Source of the DNA: Thermoflavimicrobium daqui
Lineage (GTDB): Bacteria > Bacillota > Bacilli > Thermoactinomycetales > Thermoactinomycetaceae
NCBI RefSeq assembly: GCF_003313465.1
Contig: NZ_KZ845668.1
Coordinates: 124,001-188,000 of the forward strand
Reading direction: 5' to 3'
Length of the DNA: 64,000 nt
The notes beneath the pieces are model-generated. The model was not told where the DNA came from, made no database searches, and worked only from the letters and a program-made list of their open reading frames with translations. Made by a program: the position numbers and the translations under genes. How positions within the stretch are numbered: position 1 is the stretch's first letter; the number at the start of each line of letters is the position of its first letter. Below are positions 15,691 through 34,119 of this stretch, one piece after another.

Positions 15691-16830
15691 CTAAATAAAT
15701 GCTTGACTAATCTCTTGGATAGCACGTATAAAACAGGCAATCTCTTCAGTTGTATTAAAATATCCCGGACTTACACGTATAGCACCAATTTGACCTGTTT
15801 TCATTTGCTGATGGGCTAAAAAAGCACAATGTAAACCTGATCGAACAGCAATTTGATAATGTTGATCAAGAATCATCGCTACCTCAGTGCCACTTACATT
15901 TCTTAAATTAAACGAAATAATAGGGAGTTTCGGTGGCTCCAAAGTGTATAATTCTACACCTTCAATACTAGCTAGTCCTTCCCATAACAGATGGGTTAAT
16001 TTTTTCTCATGTTCATAAATTTGATCGATTCCTGTTTGCAAAATAAACTCGACTCCAGCTCCTAATCCTGCAAGTCCAGGTGTATTAGGTGTTCCACTTT
16101 CAAATCCAATCGGTTTTTCTACTGGCTGTTCTAACTGTTCAGAGCGGTTTCCTGTTCCTCCTTGGATCATAGGAACAAGTGAAACGGACTCATGCACATA
16201 AAGTCCACCTGTTCCTTGTGGTCCAAATAAACTCTTATGCCCTGGAAAAGCTAATAAATCAATGGGTAGCCTTTCCAAATCGATCGGAAGCAACCCGGCC
16301 GTCTGCGCTGCATCAACTAAATAAAAAATTCCCTTCCTGCGCGCTACGTCTCCAATTTCCTCAACCGGTAAAATATCTCCTGTTACATTGGAACCATGAA
16401 TAGTAACAATTAATCGCGTATTAGTTTGAATAGCATTGGCTACTTGCTTAGCCCAACCTACCTTCTTATCATACGTAATCCAAGTCGTTTGTACATGCAT
16501 CTGCTTTTGTAAATAGGAAGCTGGGCGCGCGACTGCATTATGCTCCCAACCAGTAAGAATCATATGATCTCCTGATTGTATAAGCCCTTTGATTGCTTGA
16601 TTCAATGCATAAGTGGTATTAGGGAAAAATAAAAGATTGCTAGGATTTTTTACTCCTAGCAATTGAGATAATAAATTTCGAGTCCGAGTAATAGTTTGGC
16701 TCGCCCTAGAAGCTAATTGATGATTTCCACGTCCAGGATTGGCTCCGTACTCCTCAATTGCTTGCTTAACTGCCTCTGCAACACCTTTAGGTTTGGGCCA
16801 AGTCGAAGCTGCATTATCTAGATAAATCAT
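15691..16830 (-). CDS. Cysteine desulfurase family protein (class V aminotransferase)
   Basis: A 379-residue PLP enzyme of the single-gene desulfurase group found in Firmicutes. It has YLDNAAST at the N-terminus, the PLP lysine in FPGHKSLFGPQGTGGLYV and a C-terminal SGLHCA loop that carries the likely catalytic Cys. It would release sulfur from cysteine as an enzyme-bound persulfide. Its ATG overlaps the parB stop by four bases, so it is the last gene of the parA-parB operon. Confidence 0.88.
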   Translation of the reverse strand: MIYLDNAASTWPKPKGVAEAVKQAIEEYGANPGRGNHQLASRASQTITRTRNLLSQLLGVKNPSNLLFFPNTTYALNQAIKGLIQSGDHMILTGWEHNAVARPASYLQKQMHVQTTWITYDKKVGWAKQVANAIQTNTRLIVTIHGSNVTGDILPVEEIGDVARRKGIFYLVDAAQTAGLLPIDLERLPIDLLAFPGHKSLFGPQGTGGLYVHESVSLVPMIQGGTGNRSEQLEQPVEKPIGFESGTPNTPGLAGLGAGVEFILQTGIDQIYEHEKKLTHLLWEGLASIEGVELYTLEPPKLPIISFNLRNVSGTEVAMILDQHYQIAVRSGLHCAFLAHQQMKTGQIGAIRVSPGYFNTTEEIACFIRAIQEISQAFI

Positions 16831-17705
16831 CCTATCACCTGATCCTGATATAATAACTCTACTAAGCGCTCTAGCTCCCGTTCTGAATGATATACAATTT
16901 CAATTTTCCCTTTACGCCGACCTTTTTTTATCTTGACGGGTGTACTTAATAATTGTTGTAGCATATCTTCGTATCTACGAAGACTGGGGTCAAGCTCTCC
17001 TTTTGATTTTTGTTTTTCTTTTCTTACAGGTAATTGATTTATTTTTTGTACCCATTCTTCCAATTCACGAACACTTGCATTTTCTTGCTTAACTTTTTCT
17101 GCCAACTTTTTTTGTTGCTGGGCATCTTTAAGTCCTAATAATGCACGTGCATGCCCCATTGACAATGTTCCACGTGAAACATCTTCCTGTAATTCCTCTG
17201 GTAGCTGTAAAAGCCGAAGAAAGTTTGTCACATGCGACCGGCTTTTTCCGACACGTGTCGATACTTGTTCATGGGTTAATGAAAAATGTTGCATTAGTTT
17301 TTGATAAGCATAAGCAATCTCTATCGGGTTTAAATCTTCGCGTTGTAAATTTTCTACTAAACCAATTTCCAACATTTGATCATCATTTAACTCTTTAACT
17401 ACTACAGGTACTTTCGCTAAACCTGCCTTCTTAGCTGCGCGAAATCGACGTTCTCCAGCAATAATTTCATATCCTCTAATACTCTCTCTTACAATCAGTG
17501 GTTGAATAATCCCATGTAACTTAATAGAATCACTTAATTCTTCGATCAAATCATCTCCAAAATGCTTGCGTGGTTGATATGGATTTGGACGCAATTTATC
17601 TAACTCAACTTGCTTAACTACATCTTCTTCTGAAATTTCAACTTGCGGAAATAAAGCACCTAAACCTAAGCTTTTGACTCCATCTCCTAAGCCTTTACTA
17701 CTCAT
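16827..17705 (-). CDS. parB: Chromosome partition protein ParB (Spo0J)
   Basis: 292 residues. The N-terminal CTPase/clamp domain has LRPNPYQPRKHF and GERRFRAAKKA; the middle has the parS-reading helix-turn-helix (LTHEQVSTRVGKSRSHVTNFLRLL); the C-terminus dimerises. ParB slides from parS as a CTP-gated clamp and recruits SMC. Its ATG overlaps the end of parA by eight bases. A perfect parS site lies within the coding sequence, as in Bacillus subtilis. Confidence 0.96.
   Translation of the reverse strand: MSSKGLGDGVKSLGLGALFPQVEISEEDVVKQVELDKLRPNPYQPRKHFGDDLIEELSDSIKLHGIIQPLIVRESIRGYEIIAGERRFRAAKKAGLAKVPVVVKELNDDQMLEIGLVENLQREDLNPIEIAYAYQKLMQHFSLTHEQVSTRVGKSRSHVTNFLRLLQLPEELQEDVSRGTLSMGHARALLGLKDAQQQKKLAEKVKQENASVRELEEWVQKINQLPVRKEKQKSKGELDPSLRRYEDMLQQLLSTPVKIKKGRRKGKIEIVYHSERELERLVELLYQDQVIG
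17166..17181. promoter_or_regulatory. parS site inside parB
   Basis: TGTTCCACGTGAAACA is a perfect match to the Bacillus parS consensus TGTTNCACGTGAAACA. ParB nucleates here. Confidence 0.93.
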
Positions 17706-18414
17706 GACTAATCACTTCCTTAGCTAAGTCAATATAACACTCCGCACCACGTGAACGCGCATCATACATTAGGATCGGCTTTCCATGACTAGGAGCTTCG
17801 CTTAATCTGACATTTCGAGGAATCACTGTCGTATAAACTTTTGAACCGAAATATTTTTTTACTTCATCCATAACCTGAACAGATAGATTCGTTCGTTTGT
17901 CAAACATCGTTAGCAAAACACCTTCAATCCCTAAAAATTTATTGAGATGTTTTTGAACCAAGCGAATCGTATTTAACAATTGACCTAATCCTTCTAGCGC
18001 ATAAAACTCACATTGTATGGGAATCATGACTGTTTCAGCTGCTGTTAGAGCATTCAACGTAATAATACCTAAAGAAGGTGGACAATCAATAAAGATATAG
18101 TGGAAATCATTTTTGACATATGATAAAGCCCTTTTCAGCCTCAACTCACGGGAAATAGCTTGGGCTAATTCAATCTCAACACCAGCAAGCTTAATCGTTG
18201 CAGGAATGACCCACAAATTATTCACAGAGGTTGATATAATCACCTCATTGGGTATTGTCTCATTCATAAGTACATCATAAATGCACTTAGTTACATCTGG
18301 TTTATGGATTCCTAAACCACTTGTGGTATTTCCTTGCGGATCAATATCTACAATGAGTACTTTTCTCCCCAAGGAAGCTAAACTTGCTGCTAGGTTAATG
18401 GATGTTGTTGTTTT
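17698..18414 (-). CDS. parA: ParA (Soj), exon 2, residues 16-253
   Basis: This exon begins at the Walker A lysine codon (KTTTSINLAASL) and carries the rest of the ATPase: VDIDPQGN (A' motif), FIDCPPSLG (Walker B) and the C-terminal DNA-binding face. Joined to exon 1 it gives 253 residues, the length of Bacillus Soj, with the frame kept across the splice. Soj binds DNA as an ATP dimer and regulates DnaA as a monomer or dimer. An open frame with a TTG at 18372 exists but would lack the P-loop and has no ribosome-binding site. Confidence 0.95.
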   Translation of the reverse strand, partial: KTTTSINLAASLASLGRKVLIVDIDPQGNTTSGLGIHKPDVTKCIYDVLMNETIPNEVIISTSVNNLWVIPATIKLAGVEIELAQAISRELRLKRALSYVKNDFHYIFIDCPPSLGIITLNALTAAETVMIPIQCEFYALEGLGQLLNTIRLVQKHLNKFLGIEGVLLTMFDKRTNLSVQVMDEVKKYFGSKVYTTVIPRNVRLSEAPSHGKPILMYDARSRGAECYIDLAKEVISHE

Positions 18415-18546
18415 GTAGGGTAGAAAACTAGCGCCTTATATATGCATCCTAAAATAATTCGCTTATGGCCACTTATCAGATAATATCCTGATTCGACTTA
18501 AACAAATTCTACCGATCACATATACAGGTTTCTAGTATCCCCCTCC
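18415..18546 (-). ncRNA. Group II intron domain VI with a large insertion
   Basis: The basal stem forms from GGGGGATACTAG near the start and CTAGTTTTCTACCC at the 3' end, leaving an unpaired A at position -7 as likely branch point. About 90 nt of additional sequence sits at the tip; domain VI is usually about 40 nt in all. Confidence 0.65.
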
Positions 18547-18580
18547 GAACCGAACGTACACCTTTCGATGTATTCGGCTC
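18547..18580 (-). ncRNA. Group II intron domain V (catalytic hairpin)
   Basis: On the minus strand a 34-nt hairpin begins GAGCCG, has a GAAA tetraloop and ends CGGTTC. The AGC catalytic triad is present. Stems are complete, so the ribozyme core looks intact. Confidence 0.93.
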
Positions 18581-18604
18581 TCCAATTGTCGCTAGGTCAG
18601 GTGA

Positions 18605-19867
18605 TTACAATGGTTTCCGTGCTAATGGGTCTATTGATCTTCGTTTGATTTGTTGTGGAAAATAGATCATTATTTTTTCTTTTCCATTCACAGTATGATA
18701 CTTTGCTCCAATTGTTTGTTTTCCAGTAGCACTTACGATTAGACCATATTTTTTAAGAACTTTTTTCACAGAGCATTTTTCTTTATTCGCAATGGTTTTT
18801 AATAAACTTTGAAAGTGATAATAGCGAAATTTCCCCAGTTTTTTACTTACATCATCAGCATAACAATAATAGCTATACAGACCACTTATTTCAGTATGGT
18901 ATCGACGAATAATCTCTGATACAGGAAAATGAAGCCACGCTGAAAAGTGAATAGGCTGTCCATTTTTCATAAATGGATGAAGCTTAGATTGAATAATCTC
19001 ATGTGGAATTAAAAAAAGGAGCTTCCTATTTGTTGACTTAACAATATGATAGCCAAGAAATTCTACCTTCTCATCATGAATAAAGGCAGTTTTACTTGTA
19101 TTTAAATCAAGTGTCAACTCTAATTGCTGCTCTAAAAATTGCAACATCTGCTGTTTTATTTGGATAGCAGTCTTCTTGGTACCCGTTATCCAAACAAGAA
19201 ACTCATCGTGATAGCGAATATATTCCACTTTTTCCTGAATCATTATGTTTTGCACATAATGATTCATCCATTGATCAAACGGATGTAAATAAATATGAGC
19301 CAATAGGCGACTTAGCTCTCCTAACGAACCTTTATTTACAAAATCAGGTTTCAAATAGCCCGCCTGTAAAAAACGATGTACCAACTCAATAAACCGACCG
19401 TCTGCAATTTTTCTATATAACAGTTGTAGCAGGATAGGGTGAGAAATTTGAGCAAATAAGTTTTTGATTTTTCCTTTGATTACCCAATTAGATTCTGGTG
19501 CAAATTGATTTAGTTGATACAACACTTCTTCTATAGGAACTTCTTTTCGACAGCCTATAGCCGCTTCTATGAAGACGGGTTGGTATATAGCTTCAATGAG
19601 CAAACATAATACTTTTTGAACTAACTGGTCTGTATGACATCCTTTATTTTGTTCTAGGGAAAGAGGCTCTGGATAATACCGTTCATACCGCAATTGATCA
19701 ATAATCTCTTCTATCACTTCCATCTTCAATTTTCTTGAACAATCTTGCTGTGCAAGTTGATAAAAACTAGGTTGAAATAGATTGCGATATACTCGTTGAA
19801 ATATAAAATTTGCATTCTTACTAGATTTCTGACCTAGTAATGATAAGATTACTTTGGCCTTCTGCAT
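18605..19867 (-). CDS. Intron-encoded maturase with inactivated reverse-transcriptase domain
   Basis: A 420-residue protein in intron domain IV, preceded by GGAGGTATGCGAA. The C-terminal maturase (X) domain is clear: WLHFPVSEIIRRYHTEISGLYSYY at about 311-334. The RT region aligns throughout, but the catalytic YADD is YHDE (219-222), the first catalytic Asp region GDIKGCFD is GKIKNLFA (132-139), and QGGxxSP is replaced by SLGELSR (181-187). No HNH endonuclease follows. It should assist splicing but not make cDNA. The frame has no stop, which suggests selection for the maturase role. Confidence 0.9.
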   Translation of the reverse strand: MQKAKVILSLLGQKSSKNANFIFQRVYRNLFQPSFYQLAQQDCSRKLKMEVIEEIIDQLRYERYYPEPLSLEQNKGCHTDQLVQKVLCLLIEAIYQPVFIEAAIGCRKEVPIEEVLYQLNQFAPESNWVIKGKIKNLFAQISHPILLQLLYRKIADGRFIELVHRFLQAGYLKPDFVNKGSLGELSRLLAHIYLHPFDQWMNHYVQNIMIQEKVEYIRYHDEFLVWITGTKKTAIQIKQQMLQFLEQQLELTLDLNTSKTAFIHDEKVEFLGYHIVKSTNRKLLFLIPHEIIQSKLHPFMKNGQPIHFSAWLHFPVSEIIRRYHTEISGLYSYYCYADDVSKKLGKFRYYHFQSLLKTIANKEKCSVKKVLKKYGLIVSATGKQTIGAKYHTVNGKEKIMIYFPQQIKRRSIDPLARKPL

Positions 19868-20090
19868 TTCGCATACCTCCGTAATTTATCATTTCGACAA
19901 TCTGCCTTCCTTCGCCACGTGACTGGCTTTCCCAAGTCTCAAACTACTATGAAGGCTCCGCAGCCTTAGCGATAATGCCTTAGGCTGTCTCCGTTTAGCT
20001 CATGTAAATACAAAGGGAGTGACTTAGGTTCCCGTTCGCTTCTTTGACGTATCAACGATACGCTGGGAAGAGATAGAGAGTGTAAATAGT

Positions 20091-20096
20091 GTTGGC
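20091..20096 (-). promoter_or_regulatory. Candidate EBS1 of the group II intron
   Basis: GCCAAC on the minus strand, within domain I, is complementary over six bases to GTTGGC, the last six bases of parA exon 1. It lies in the loop of a possible hairpin (TGTAAAT / ATTTACA). Confidence 0.75.
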
Positions 20097-20374
20097 AAAC
20101 CCATTTACAATCCCTCCCGTGTACGTTTCGATTAGCTTTCGTACACCTTGGTAGTTTAAGCGAAGAAGCTGGGTTTAAAGCAGTTTAGCCTTGACCATAT
20201 CACTCCACTGGCCTTGCATATCAACTTATTAGCTAATTTCATAAGTCATATGCTTTACTGACATGCTATGGTCCCCTTTGATGTTTCCATCTCAGGTAAG
20301 TCAGTTGGCCATCAGGATCCCTCTCTAATCCTGAGCCCTCATTGGGCAATATTTACAGACCCTTACGGACGCAC

Positions 20375-20419
20375 GCCAACTCCACCTTTTTGATTAGCAA
20401 TCGCTATAATTTTCCCCAT
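20375..20419 (-). CDS. parA: ParA (Soj), exon 1, residues 1-15
   Basis: ATG and 14 further codons encode MGKIIAIANQKGGVG, the N-terminus of a deviant Walker A motif. AGAGAGGTGAATCAT precedes the ATG. The exon ends at the Gly codon GGC immediately before the intron GTGCG. The next codon, the essential Lys, starts exon 2. Confidence 0.95.
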
Positions 20420-20904
20420 ATGATTCACCTCTCTTAGTTCTCACATCTCTCTCACAAAGAACCCAATTAAGTGTGTAGCCTACTTTGGTTGGAAGCTTGA
20501 TATAGTCTTGTCCAGATGAGAATGGTGTCTAGGACAAATGATTTTCCTAAGGTAACTTAAATAACAAGGACCATCTTATAGCAATCTCAAAAAAATACGA
20601 TGTAAAATAGCAAACGAATTGAGTTCCTGTTTTAAGAGCAATTGATTACTACGATAGATAAGTAGTAGGGATCATCTTTACACGAAACAGGAAAAATGAT
20701 CCCATTTTATTCTTCTGTTTGTAGACAATATTGCCCTTTAAAAAATCCACTGCTTTCCATTTGAGAGCTCCGAGTTATAGATCTTCTGAGATTTACTGTT
20801 TGAAGCTCTTTGTTTCTTAAGTAAAAGTCGTCCTACAATAACTCCCACTTGCTAAGATCTTTACTTAATCTGAGCAATATGTCTATAGATGAATAGTCCG
20901 AATA

Positions 20905-21067
20905 GAGGTTGCCCTCTTAATCAGCCGTTCATCGCTTCCCCCCTCACTCCCATAGCCTTAATCGGTCCATAAAGTTGTTCCTTGGGGAAAAGTCGTTCCC
21001 ACACAAAAGTACTTCATGGCTTCATCTAGGAATGATCTAAGTTTTGGCTCGAATGATGCAACATGCT
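20905..21067 (-). repeat. Dispersed intergenic repeat, copy 2
   Basis: Reading the minus strand it has AGCATGTTGCATCATTCGA, then TTTTGTGTGGGAACGACTTTT, GGGAGTGAG, GCGATGAACGGCTGATTAAG and GAGGGCAACCTC, in the same order as copy 1. Confidence 0.7.
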
Positions 21068-21310
21068 CCTGATAGATCTAGTTGTCTCAAATGTACTCTT
21101 TCTCCAAGAAAGTAATTGATACAACAAGATCTACCAGCAGATAGTAGATTAATTTTACGATAACACAAAATTTTGCTCTTGCCATCTCCTAAGAAAATGA
21201 TTTTACGGAAACTTTCTATCCATCTAACATTTAGAGAGTTAAATATCTGTCTACCCAATAATACAGAAGTTCTCCTATACACGGTCATGTCACTAACTTC
21301 AAAAGTCCAA

Positions 21311-21473
21311 ATAACTTCTAGATAAAACCGCGAATCATTTTTATGTAGGATCAACCTTTCCCATAGAGAAAGAGCACTTCAAAAGTTATACTTAATTCGA
21401 AACTCTATGGACTAATCAAAGTTATGGGAGTGAGTAAGGAAACGATGAGTGATGGAGTTTAAGAGGGTAACCT
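21311..21473 (+). repeat. Dispersed intergenic repeat, copy 3
   Basis: It has CGCGAATCATTTTTATGTAGG, ATGGGAGTGAGTAAGGAAACG, GATGAGTGATGG and AAGAGGGTAACC. An extra internal stretch of about 40 bases separates the first and second halves relative to copy 1. Confidence 0.65.
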
Positions 21474-21602
21474 TTACTTCTATTAGAAGAGCTATTTTGT
21501 ATAACCCCTATATCTTAAACATATTGTAGTCCATCCCCCAATCATTGGCTTTCAAAAAAGTTGGAGTTAGTCCAACATAAAATAGCTTCCATAAGATCAT
21601 CC

Positions 21603-23144: not shown

Positions 23145-24332
23145 ATGAGTATTCCTGTTTACATAGGCAATGACCAAGGATACTATGGTACCAAAGTTGT
23201 TAGCCGTGCTAATGGAAAGTTTTATAAAATGTTTATCCGTAATATGGTGGTTCCTAACCGTGTAGGAGAAATTACCTACAATAATGATCCTCATAACATT
23301 ATGTATAAAGAAGCGGATGGGGATCGGGAATGGTTTGTCGGAAAATTAGCGATTGAACAATCAGGTGATGATGAACTATTCGATTCACACAAACGTCGTT
23401 TATTTAGCCCAACTTGGTTCCGCGAACAAGAATATCTCATTATGTTCAGAGTGAGTACCGGGTTGATGTTACAAGGTAATACAGAGCCGATTGTCTCCGT
23501 AGCATTACCAACAGATAGCTATGTAGACTATAAAGACGATCTTAAACGTCGCCTTATTGGAAAACATAGTTTTGAAGTTAAACAAGGTAATCTCCCTTAT
23601 AGAAAAATTGAGTTTGAAATTAAAAAAGAAAATTTATTTGTTATTAGCCAACCTATGGCTACTTTATTCCATATTGCCTTAGACCGAGAAGGAAATCTGT
23701 TAAATGAGGATTTATTTATTCAAAAAGTTAGTATCAACGACTTAGGTTTTGGTACTTCTGATATTGAAACTCTACATGGCGAAACCATCATTAAACGTCA
23801 AAGCTTCACTTCCCGTTATGCCATGATGACTGTATATCAACGGTTATCTAAAAAGTTATTAGAATTTACGCGCAGTGTCGACTCAGAACAAAACGGAAAA
23901 GAATATCCTATTTGGAGTTTGCCACGAATTGTAAGTTCCGGAGAAATCAGCTTTAAAGGAAAGATTCATGATATCAGCTCAATCGTACAAGAATCTATCA
24001 AAGAAGTTGGGGAAAGCTTAGTTGATGAAGTATGGAATCGTCTCGAGTTCGGTGATGATATTACCTACATTATTCTTACAGGTGGTGCATCGATTCCTTT
24101 CAAACCATTCTATCGTGACCGATTTGGTGATAAATTGATCTTCGCGGAAGACTATGGAATTGAAGCCCAATTTGCCAATGGTTTCGGTCTCTGCAAATTC
24201 TCTCAATCCAAATCTAAAGCTGTACCTGTTAAAGATCTTCTAGAAGCAGCAGCTACAATTCAACAAGAGTTTACTCCTGATACAGCTAATGAACCAGTAG
24301 TATCTAAAAAACAAAAAGTAGCAAAAAAATAG
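23145..24332 (+). CDS. ParM/Alp-type actin-like ATPase encoded beside oriC
   Basis: A 395-residue protein of the bacterial actin superfamily. Phosphate-1 is YIGNDQGYYGTK (residues 6-17), phosphate-2 is NDLGFGTSD (198-206) and the adenosine motif is ILTGGAS (310-316). It ends in a Lys-rich tail. Relatives (ParM, AlpA, Alp7A) form filaments that move plasmids or organise membranes. AAAAGGAGG precedes the ATG. It sits head-on to replication between noc and rsmG, with parS sites in front and a terminator behind. No ParR-like gene is recognised. The fold is sure; the cellular role is inferred. Confidence 0.85.
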   Translation: MSIPVYIGNDQGYYGTKVVSRANGKFYKMFIRNMVVPNRVGEITYNNDPHNIMYKEADGDREWFVGKLAIEQSGDDELFDSHKRRLFSPTWFREQEYLIMFRVSTGLMLQGNTEPIVSVALPTDSYVDYKDDLKRRLIGKHSFEVKQGNLPYRKIEFEIKKENLFVISQPMATLFHIALDREGNLLNEDLFIQKVSINDLGFGTSDIETLHGETIIKRQSFTSRYAMMTVYQRLSKKLLEFTRSVDSEQNGKEYPIWSLPRIVSSGEISFKGKIHDISSIVQESIKEVGESLVDEVWNRLEFGDDITYIILTGGASIPFKPFYRDRFGDKLIFAEDYGIEAQFANGFGLCKFSQSKSKAVPVKDLLEAAATIQQEFTPDTANEPVVSKKQKVAKK

Positions 24333-24639: not shown

Positions 24640-26202
24640 ATGTCTCAGCATGAAAAGCTATTTGATCTCATATTATTGGGATCTGGAGAAAATGGAAAAG
24701 AGATCATTCAGGGTTTAGAAGAACAAGGTAAACGTGTCTTATACATCAACCTACAACCTGAACTTATCGCTTCCATGAGTGTCCAAGTACCTTATGAGTA
24801 TACTTCCGATGAGCGGAATGAAGATAAACAACCTTTCAAAATTTTAGCACATACACAAACATTAAATACTTCAACTTATGAGTTAAGAACATATATGTTT
24901 CAAGCCAAGCAACATGAAGAATCTTTAGAAGTAAGCTCTATGAAAGATCAAGAAGTTCAATCAAAAGAAATAGAACAAGCACAGCCTACAAAATTTGAAT
25001 CAACTGTACTAAAGAGTGAAAAGGAAAAACATGAAATAAATCATGTTTCCAAAACAGAGGAAAATAATTCTCTGCATAAAGAAGAAAATCTTGAAAAAGT
25101 TCTACAAGCATTTGATGAAGTATTAGAAGTGGAAGAACCTACTGAAAAGATGAAAGAAGAAGTTGTTGTTCCCAAGAAAGTCATGGACGAGGTAAACCAT
25201 AGTCACAGAGAAACAGCTTCGACCGAAGTAAATGATTCATCTATCGAACAAAAGATACAACCTTTTATTCTATCAGAACCCAATAAAGATACTACGGATT
25301 CTAATAATGAAAAAACATTGGATATATTAAAAGCAAGAGAACTATCATTAAGAAAAAAACTGTTTCGACGCAAAAACCAAGTAGATTCGGACAACAGTTC
25401 TTCATTTAATCAAGCATTCTCCTCTACTTTAGAAGTGAAGCCGGAAACAGAGGAATCGAAATCACCTAAATCAACTGATACGAATATTGCTTCCGAACCT
25501 GTTGAAAGTTTAGATGAACAGCCTATTCAAAAATCGATTCAAGAGGAAACTGATACGAACGGACATGAGCACTCATCTGAATCTTTAACCTATTCATCTG
25601 AATATGATCGAGAAGTCAAGCTAAGAAAGAAATTCTTAGGTAGAAGTAGACATTCATTATCCTATTCTGAATTAGAACAACAGGAAGAAGAAGCCATCCA
25701 AGGAAATAATGAAGATATCACTAAACAAACTGAATCAAGAGAGCGATTAACTGTTGAAAAACAAGAGGAAATTTCCCCAGAATCTCTTTCTTTAGAATCC
25801 TTTACCTCTCGGCGACGTTCCCGAGCAAAAAAGAAGAACCGTTTATTTGCCAATATCGTAAACCGTCCACCTCAGGCAAGGGATAATCCTCCTTCATCAA
25901 CACCTGTAACTGAGGCTAACAACCAACAATCAAAACCGTTAGCTTCCGACTACTTCCCGCAATCCGAAGATGAAATTATCGATATGGCTGATTTTAATTA
26001 TAATTCAGAACTAAATACGAACTCTTCTCCTACATTAAAAAGAGATACAATTGAATTTGAAGATGCTTATGGTTATAACCAATGGGAGGAGTTTTTTACC
26101 CCATTCTCTCATAGCAGCCGAAAGAGGCAAGAAATGAATAAAATAGAGAAGCGAAAGATCGCCTTACGTGGTTTGCATAATTTAATTAATAATTTAGGAT
26201 AA
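24640..26202 (+). CDS. Large, mostly disordered protein of unknown family
   Basis: 520 residues. Residues 8-36 look like a Rossmann first strand-loop-helix (LILLGSGENGKEIIQGL). The next 400 or so residues are rich in Glu, Ser, Lys, Asn and Thr and look disordered. Three basic patches recur: LRKKLFRRK (about 237), LRKKFLGRS (about 328) and RRRSRAKKK (about 391). A compact C-terminus (about 474-520) has YNQWEEFFTPF and a Lys/Arg helix. I do not recognise it. The ribosome-binding site is poor, so the start is uncertain. Position suggests, without proof, a partner of the actin-like protein. Confidence 0.7.
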   Translation: MSQHEKLFDLILLGSGENGKEIIQGLEEQGKRVLYINLQPELIASMSVQVPYEYTSDERNEDKQPFKILAHTQTLNTSTYELRTYMFQAKQHEESLEVSSMKDQEVQSKEIEQAQPTKFESTVLKSEKEKHEINHVSKTEENNSLHKEENLEKVLQAFDEVLEVEEPTEKMKEEVVVPKKVMDEVNHSHRETASTEVNDSSIEQKIQPFILSEPNKDTTDSNNEKTLDILKARELSLRKKLFRRKNQVDSDNSSSFNQAFSSTLEVKPETEESKSPKSTDTNIASEPVESLDEQPIQKSIQEETDTNGHEHSSESLTYSSEYDREVKLRKKFLGRSRHSLSYSELEQQEEEAIQGNNEDITKQTESRERLTVEKQEEISPESLSLESFTSRRRSRAKKKNRLFANIVNRPPQARDNPPSSTPVTEANNQQSKPLASDYFPQSEDEIIDMADFNYNSELNTNSSPTLKRDTIEFEDAYGYNQWEEFFTPFSHSSRKRQEMNKIEKRKIALRGLHNLINNLG

Positions 26203-33257: not shown

Positions 33258-34119
33258 ATTATTCACCTGGTGATCCTTAGCTTTCTCATGCATGTAAGCT
33301 AAGGTGAACCGGATCGGATAAAGATCCGACTGCGCCCCAGGTAACCTCCCTTCTATATCATGCGTTCATCAATACCCGACGACAATCTATAACATTATAC
33401 CGAGTTTAAAGTAAAAATGTCAAGAAACCCTTATGCTCTAAGGGATAAGCATGTGGATAAATTTTCAACCTGCTTTCGAAAATCCTTTATGTAATTAACC
33501 TTTTCATAAACATATACAAAACGTGTACTTTCTGTTGATACATCCAATTTTCCTTTTCTGGTTAAACGAAAGGTTTGATTTTTACACAACAGAAAGGAAA
33601 TCACAAATCTAGAAAAATGGTACGTGGCGGATTAAGAGGGGCACTTCAACTTAAAATAAAGAGACTAAAGTTATCCACATGTTTATAACCTGAGGATTCC
33701 CCATCTCCTTATGTGGATAACTTATCGTAATTATCCCCATCCACATGTGGATAATTTTTGCGCATCGGAAACTTTTTACACATCTTATCCAAAGATTATC
33801 CACTGGTTATCCACAGTATTCAGGGGTGTGGATAAAAAAAATCCACATCCTTGTGGATTGTGGATAACTTTCCATTTCTCATTGTAAATACTGGGATAAT
33901 TTGATATTCTATTGTTGCTTTATCAGTGGATAACTCACTTGTTCACAAACACTTATCCACAACTGTGGATAAGTGTTTGATTATTTATTCACATCCCTGT
34001 GGAAAATATTTTAGACAAGGTGTGGATGATGTGAATAAGTCATTTTTACTCTTTATTATCATCATTAAACCTTGTGGATAAATTATTTATATCATCTAGC
34101 TGAGAAAGGAGGAGAATGG
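33258..34119. other. Upstream half of oriC: DnaA-box region between rpmH and dnaA
   Basis: Ten perfect DnaA boxes are visible: TTATCCACA at 33671, 33807 and 33953, and TGTGGATAA at 33452, 33712, 33746, 33827, 33859, 33964 and 34073. Several one-mismatch copies lie among them. The rpmH side also has two hairpins (CCTTAGCTT/AAGCTAAGG near 33,273-33,303 and CGGATC/GATCCG near 33,313-33,331), likely in the rpmH leader. The dnaA promoter must lie here, so DnaA should repress its own gene. Confidence 0.92.

Follow-up and report, generated by a model that had tools for sequence, protein, structure and literature searches.

The soj (parA) locus of Thermoflavimicrobium daqui lies close to oriC, on its left side, in the order spo0J, soj, noc, rsmG, mnmG, mnmE, jag, yidC, rnpA, dnaA (position 34072), dnaN, recF, gyrB, and gyrA. 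Within the 64,000-nt stretch of DNA that we analyzed (the window), soj is read from the minus strand and is split between the Gly and Lys codons of KGGVG|KTT by a group II intron of 1,960 nt (positions 18415 to 20374, minus strand). Exon 1 (20375 to 20419, minus), delimited from the sequence and an alignment of Soj proteins, supplies 15 codons (MGKIIAIANQKGGVG) that end in K-G-G-V-G, and exon 2 (17698 to 18414, minus) supplies 238 codons and the stop, starting with KTTTSINLAAS and matching AAA_31 (2.9e-52). The stop codon of soj is overlapped by spo0J (parB; 16827 to 17705, minus), whose product has the Pfam domains ParB_N, HTH_ParB, and ParB_C.

Joining the exons yields a protein of 253 residues that aligns without gaps to a solved ParA (8ray, 1.4e-87) and also matches the solved Soj 6iub (1.8e-63), and this protein has the complete ParA fold, the motif KGGVGKTT, and a gene upstream of spo0J, all of which identify it as Soj. 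An earlier note on this DNA had proposed both the 253-residue product and an insertion between the P-loop Gly and Lys codons; the product stands, and the coordinates given for the insertion are correct to the base. If left unspliced, the RNA would yield a peptide of just 18 residues, MGKIIAIANQKGGVGVRP-stop. The genome is 99.98% complete and contains a single Soj at E ≤ 1e-40, such that the second, uninterrupted parA that might have done the work is not found there; the other P-loop ATPases, which include MinD-type proteins and a plasmid-type ParA with KGGIAKTTT, were rejected as intact Soj copies.

Several features of the surrounding region are of separate interest. The gap between noc and soj (window positions 20420 to 21602) is about 1.2 kb, versus mostly 40 to 650 nt in relatives, and holds a 105-codon open reading frame (ORF) whose product has no Pfam match; this region may be what is left of a mobile element. 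A gene for an actin-like protein (ALP_N, similar to ParM/PRTRC_D; 23145 to 24332, plus) is located next to oriC, with rsmG and noc on either side. It adjoins noc, with 79 to 94% identity, in nearly all Thermoactinomycetales genomes checked (it is absent from G040 and G041) and seems to be an actin homologue linked to oriC throughout the order. The adjoining gene (24640 to 26202, plus) encodes a highly charged protein of 520 residues and unknown family, with partial matches beside the actin-like gene in relatives.

Features of the intron RNA

The insert in soj begins with GTGCGTCCGTAAGG and ends with CTACCCTAC, and its boundaries (GTGCG at the 5' end) are identical in other Thermoactinomycetales genomes. 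The Rfam model of domains V and VI (Intron_gpII, RF00029) matches positions 18582 to 18415 of the minus strand with 60.5 bits (gathering threshold, 40), and the match ends exactly at 18415, the predicted splice site. According to the Rfam alignment, domain V (18549 to 18582, minus) is the catalytic hairpin, with a GAAA loop, and domain VI (18415 to 18548, minus) is enlarged and retains the conserved end; the seventh base from the 3' end, at 18421 (minus), is the candidate branch-point A. The window contains a single copy of the 5' consensus GTGCGNCCGTNAGG, at 20374 to 20361, against an expectation of 0. The insert therefore combines domains V and VI with the GTGYG...AY ends of a group II intron, as the earlier note had recognized. 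It is a single-copy element in this genome. Across the order, the junction is shared by 19 genomes that have the exact 5' pattern, T. daqui included, and by G005, recognized from the 3' end; this recurrence excludes chance.

The intron recognizes its host through a pairing that has been maintained among relatives. EBS1 (GCCAAC; 20091 to 20096, minus; intron nucleotides 279 to 284) lies in an 11-nt hairpin loop and pairs at six of six positions with IBS1 (GTTGGC; 20375 to 20380, minus), the last 6 nt of exon 1, as had been proposed for this intron. A corresponding loop is located about 250 to 290 nt into most introns at the parA site, and EBS1 was defined by this loop, as locking its position to a fixed downstream anchor gave inconsistent registers. 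Across 28 introns, 162 of 168 EBS1-IBS1 positions pair, compared with a mean of 135.4 for shuffled partners (0 of 50,000 shuffles as high), although the observed count is somewhat inflated because hexamers were picked from the 11-nt loop partly knowing IBS1. IBS1 is a GTN GGN codon pair, so its variation is silent for the host protein; EBS1 covaries with these silent codon changes, and the intron has followed its host. Each of six introns contains one mismatch, and four of the six belong to Shimazuella (G016) and the Ktedonobacteria, the groups that hold both cases of an intact reverse transcriptase (RT).

Two features place the parA-site intron in the ML/IIA class. The base preceding EBS1 is T in 27 of the 28 introns (in the window, it is the candidate delta) and the 3' exon starts with A, as in the delta-delta' pairing of IIA introns. 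In addition, the nearest solved intron-encoded protein (IEP) is LtrA, which matches over residues 6 to 553 of 582 (7.8e-117) when an RT-intact relative is the query, indicating that the parA-site intron is related to that of LtrA.

The intron-encoded protein

The intron encodes a protein of 420 residues (18605 to 19867, minus), with a Shine-Dalgarno sequence, GGAGGT (19875 to 19880, minus), 7 nt before its ATG that is conserved in most relatives. The protein consists of a degenerate RT and a retained maturase domain X (Pfam RVT_1, 6.6e-14; Intron_maturas2, 3.3e-12). Both catalytic sites of the RT are lost, with Asp replaced by Lys in motif A and YADD replaced by YHDE; hence the window IEP lacks the catalytic Asp residues of a mobile intron, and a Pfam search found no HNH endonuclease domain in it. 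With TIGR04416, the model of group II RTs (cutoff, 300), the window IEP scores 119 bits, and those of Shimazuella and Dictyobacter score 312 and 305; the IEP of Dictyobacter vulcani also has an HNH domain.

Loss of the RT sites is the rule at this position. Only 2 of 26 parA-site IEPs readable across both motifs, those of Shimazuella soli (G016) and D. vulcani, have both sites intact, and within the Thermoactinomycetales, 18 of the 19 ORF-bearing introns at the site are RT dead. The replacements are diverse: beside the K/YHDE of the window, the motif A/YADD states include K/HVDD, K/WGEE, S/IHSQ, A/WNRY, E/YSDR, Q/YADE, and H/YADH. IEPs at other sites in these genomes, which served as a control, are mixed, some intact and some degenerate, indicating that RT decay is not unique to parA.

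Despite the loss of catalytic residues, the RT-dead ORFs stay open, and in five close pairs their dN/dS ratios are 0.20 to 0.31, denoting purifying selection. Domain X is more alike than the RT across parA-site IEPs (mean identity, 44% versus 32%). As in MatK, domain X is kept, the RT sites are lost, and the ORF is under selection; the window IEP has apparently kept its ability to assist splicing and lost its ability to copy, and with its RT dead, the intron is probably splicing-only. An IEP in cis is not always kept, since the G010 intron at this site (L085, soj region), 1,394 nt long, has no IEP and has an EBS1 that pairs at six of six positions; splicing help for this intron would have to come in trans, or none would be needed.

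Distribution of introns at the parA site

Each of 42 Thermoactinomycetales genomes has a single Soj, and the gene is interrupted at the identical junction in 20 of them (including G005, in which the 5' part of the intron is cut by a contig end) and uninterrupted in the other 22, which answers the question, raised in the earlier note, of how widely the interruption is conserved. The carriers span three families in the grouping used and include Thermoflavimicrobium, Laceyella, Shimazuella, Seinonella, Paenactinomyces, Baia, Kroppenstedtia, and Paludifilum. No intron occurs at the site in 361 sampled genomes of Bacilli outside the order.

A pattern scan of 84,980 species, each represented by one genome of the collection, recovered the junction sporadically in the Clostridia (Clostridium algidicarnis, C. 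simiarum, Heliorestis, and three further Clostridia or Bacillota metagenome-assembled genomes [MAGs]) and in four Ktedonobacteria of the Chloroflexota (D. vulcani, D. arantiisoli, Ktedonosporobacter, and strain brp13). It was also present in several short contigs of one Anaerolineae MAG (MAG_32), whose exon 1 sequences differ and which break just inside the start of the intron. Rfam confirmed domains V and VI in seven introns outside the Thermoactinomycetales. The remaining matches were chance occurrences in unrelated frames, and a viral vector was rejected because the single match among viral contigs is not a ParA.

Vertical descent and transfer

In a tree rooted with IEPs from other sites, all 12 of the parA-site IEPs that were tested group together in a clade (support, 96/96), within which those of the Thermoactinomycetales form a clade of their own (99/98) with the RT-intact Shimazuella outermost. 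Trees that included the fastest-evolving sequences (G012, G005, G036, and the Clostridia) gave long-branch joins and were rebuilt without them. A separate test of monophyly, lacking the root of other-site IEPs, had only three Ktedonobacteria outside the group and was uninformative. The sister of the parA-site clade is an RT-intact (YADD) intron on a 335-kb Subdoligranulum plasmid (L225:1923-4420), located in a large ORF unrelated to parA; strict specificity of the whole lineage for ParA was rejected on this basis. RT loss appears to have been independent at least in the Thermoactinomycetales, brp13, and Ktedonosporobacter, and the clostridial line, whose placement in the tree is unsure, is likely a further independent loss.

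The introns are monophyletic within each of Thermoflavimicrobium, Laceyella, the Baia group, and g18, and they have descended with soj within genera. In the five close pairs, dS for the dead IEP and for soj is 0.29 and 0.28, 0.40 and 0.41, 0.44 and 0.36, 0.47 and 0.40, and 0.07 and 0.05, respectively, a similarity indicating that intron and gene were inherited together. Mapped onto the host tree, presence and absence of the intron require at least seven gains or losses (on the starred branches), such that recurrent homing or transfer has contributed.

The strongest alternative is that homing accounts for nearly the whole pattern, with active introns moving between species and reinvading the site, so that we see many young insertions in decay and little long-term vertical descent. 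The patchy distribution is as this predicts, active relatives exist, and Shimazuella soli carries an RT-intact copy that two congeners lack and that groups with the Ktedonobacteria when the tree has no root outside the parA site; the broken MAG_32 contigs are also what a multicopy intron would cause. Young insertions in decay would not, however, be expected to keep dead ORFs open under purifying selection with a dS close to that of soj, or to be monophyletic within four groups, and the introns of the order form one clade once non-parA relatives root the tree. Moreover, EBS1 fits the local silent codons best in the dead residents, with most of the single mismatches falling in Shimazuella and the Ktedonobacteria. 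We consider homing on this scale a possible but distinctly less probable history and read the data as one intron lineage adapted to the ParA P-loop, inherited mostly vertically within genera, with losses and some transfer.

Constraint on Soj and its probable splicing

Soj is equally constrained with and without the intron (dN/dS, 0.01 to 0.07 in carriers and 0.02 to 0.08 in noncarriers), suggesting that functional Soj is made despite the intron and strongly implying that splicing is efficient. The dependence of each functional Soj on one splicing event leaves room for a switch in which the intron couples RNA processing (through temperature or Mg2+) to the level of Soj and thence to segregation or the control of DnaA, as the earlier note had suggested; translation of the IEP from unspliced RNA could even provide homeostatic feedback. 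Half of the order, however, lacks the intron in the same gene at the same constraint, and we found no regulatory feature and no evidence that splicing, temperature, or Mg2+ is linked to replication, making this an improbable role. In Bacillus subtilis, soj is dispensable, so its splicing need not be a checkpoint. That same dispensability is the one point in favor of a decaying selfish element that splices poorly or not at all and leaves soj a pseudogene in its carriers, which is the least credible reading given the low dN/dS of Soj in carriers, the EBS1-IBS1 covariation, the intact domain V, and the fact that every intron-bearing soj exon seen is open with its halves of the P-loop intact.

A probably immobile intron with a putative MatK-like maturase

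The explanation that we favor, and hold to be very probable, is that an ML/IIA intron lineage entered the ParA P-loop, became immobile, and has since been inherited mainly vertically as a splicing-only resident with a MatK-like maturase. The lineage would have originated as a retrohoming element targeting the conserved Walker A codons of ParA. The soj pre-mRNA would carry the intron, and the IEP would be translated from this RNA before it is spliced, by way of the Shine-Dalgarno sequence of the IEP; the protein probably no longer reverse transcribes and would serve as a maturase in folding the ribozyme. The exons would then be positioned by EBS1 and delta, and joining of the codons for Gly-15 and Lys-16 would produce Soj. 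Strong selection on soj would preserve the intron RNA, EBS1, and the maturase while the RT and endonuclease decay. From these comparisons of genomes, we infer that cells splice soj, that they require the IEP as the maturase for this, and that the intron is no longer mobile, although the RTs of other introns could in principle act in trans in place of a dead one.

Bacterial group II introns are usually held to avoid housekeeping genes for the most part and to survive by constant movement, with no persistence of nonmobile, splicing-only derivatives (PMC4424553), a view that is taken to set bacteria apart from organelles and from the path to spliceosomal introns. IEPs that are degenerate are rare in bacteria, and the only example known to a 2015 review is O.i.I2 in radC of Oceanobacillus iheyensis (PMC4424553), the one bacterial precedent that we found for an RT-dead, splicing-only state. 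Like the parA-site introns, O.i.I2 is of the ML class, resides in a conserved bacterial gene, and has an IEP that lacks YADD yet is open and presumed to be maturase only (PMC4424553). It is a single case, whereas at one codon junction of soj the state recurs in nearly all ORF-bearing introns of one order and again in Clostridia and Ktedonobacteria, with evidence from selection and covariation.

Other known introns share some of these properties. The chloroplast trnK intron is likewise a IIA intron residing stably in a key gene, with an IEP, MatK, that has lost RT motifs and kept domain X (PMC4424553), but the parA-site introns are on bacterial chromosomes, and MatK serves several introns in trans (PMC4424553). 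A group II intron also occupies a housekeeping gene in the thermophilic Gram-positive bacterium Geobacillus kaustophilus (Chee and Takami 2005, cited in PMC4424553), but that gene is recA and not soj. Ll.LtrB of Lactococcus lactis, which encodes LtrA, belongs to the same ML/IIA class but interrupts a relaxase gene and is actively mobile, unlike the window intron, whose IEP has neither RT sites nor an endonuclease. We found no description of a group II intron in parA or in the Thermoactinomycetaceae in the open-access literature, to which the search was confined.

More tentatively, the parA-site introns may amount to a bacterial counterpart of MatK: a clade that inhabits the Walker A codons of a single chromosomal gene throughout an order. 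In this clade, mobility would have been lost several times, the maturase would have been kept along with an EBS1 that tracks silent changes of the host exon, and chromosome partitioning would have come to depend obligately on domesticated splicing, which possibly also regulates Soj dosage. At this one site, the introns of approximately 20 species in a single order range from RT intact through RT dead to ORF-less, and many of these species are spore formers that can be cultivated. How a mobile retroelement turns into a resident intron that depends on a maturase can thus be tested directly in bacteria. The clade also bears on a 2009 survey in which group II introns showed no preference for conserved sites (PMC2814812), as its site lies in a motif that ranks among the most conserved of a widespread ATPase.

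Introns in other genes of the order

The T. daqui genome contains a second ML-type group II intron (L055:930-3022, contig C9), whose host exons read like mutS (LGDFYEMF|FDDAK). Its 5' junction is identical in G014, G015, and G019, and G015 has several copies of the IEP. Related introns occur in an apparent gene for the beta subunit of ribonucleotide reductase (L043:916-3054, in G020) and in an HU-like gene with two neighboring introns (L054, in G022), and the Thermoactinomycetales seem to be rich in introns within housekeeping genes.
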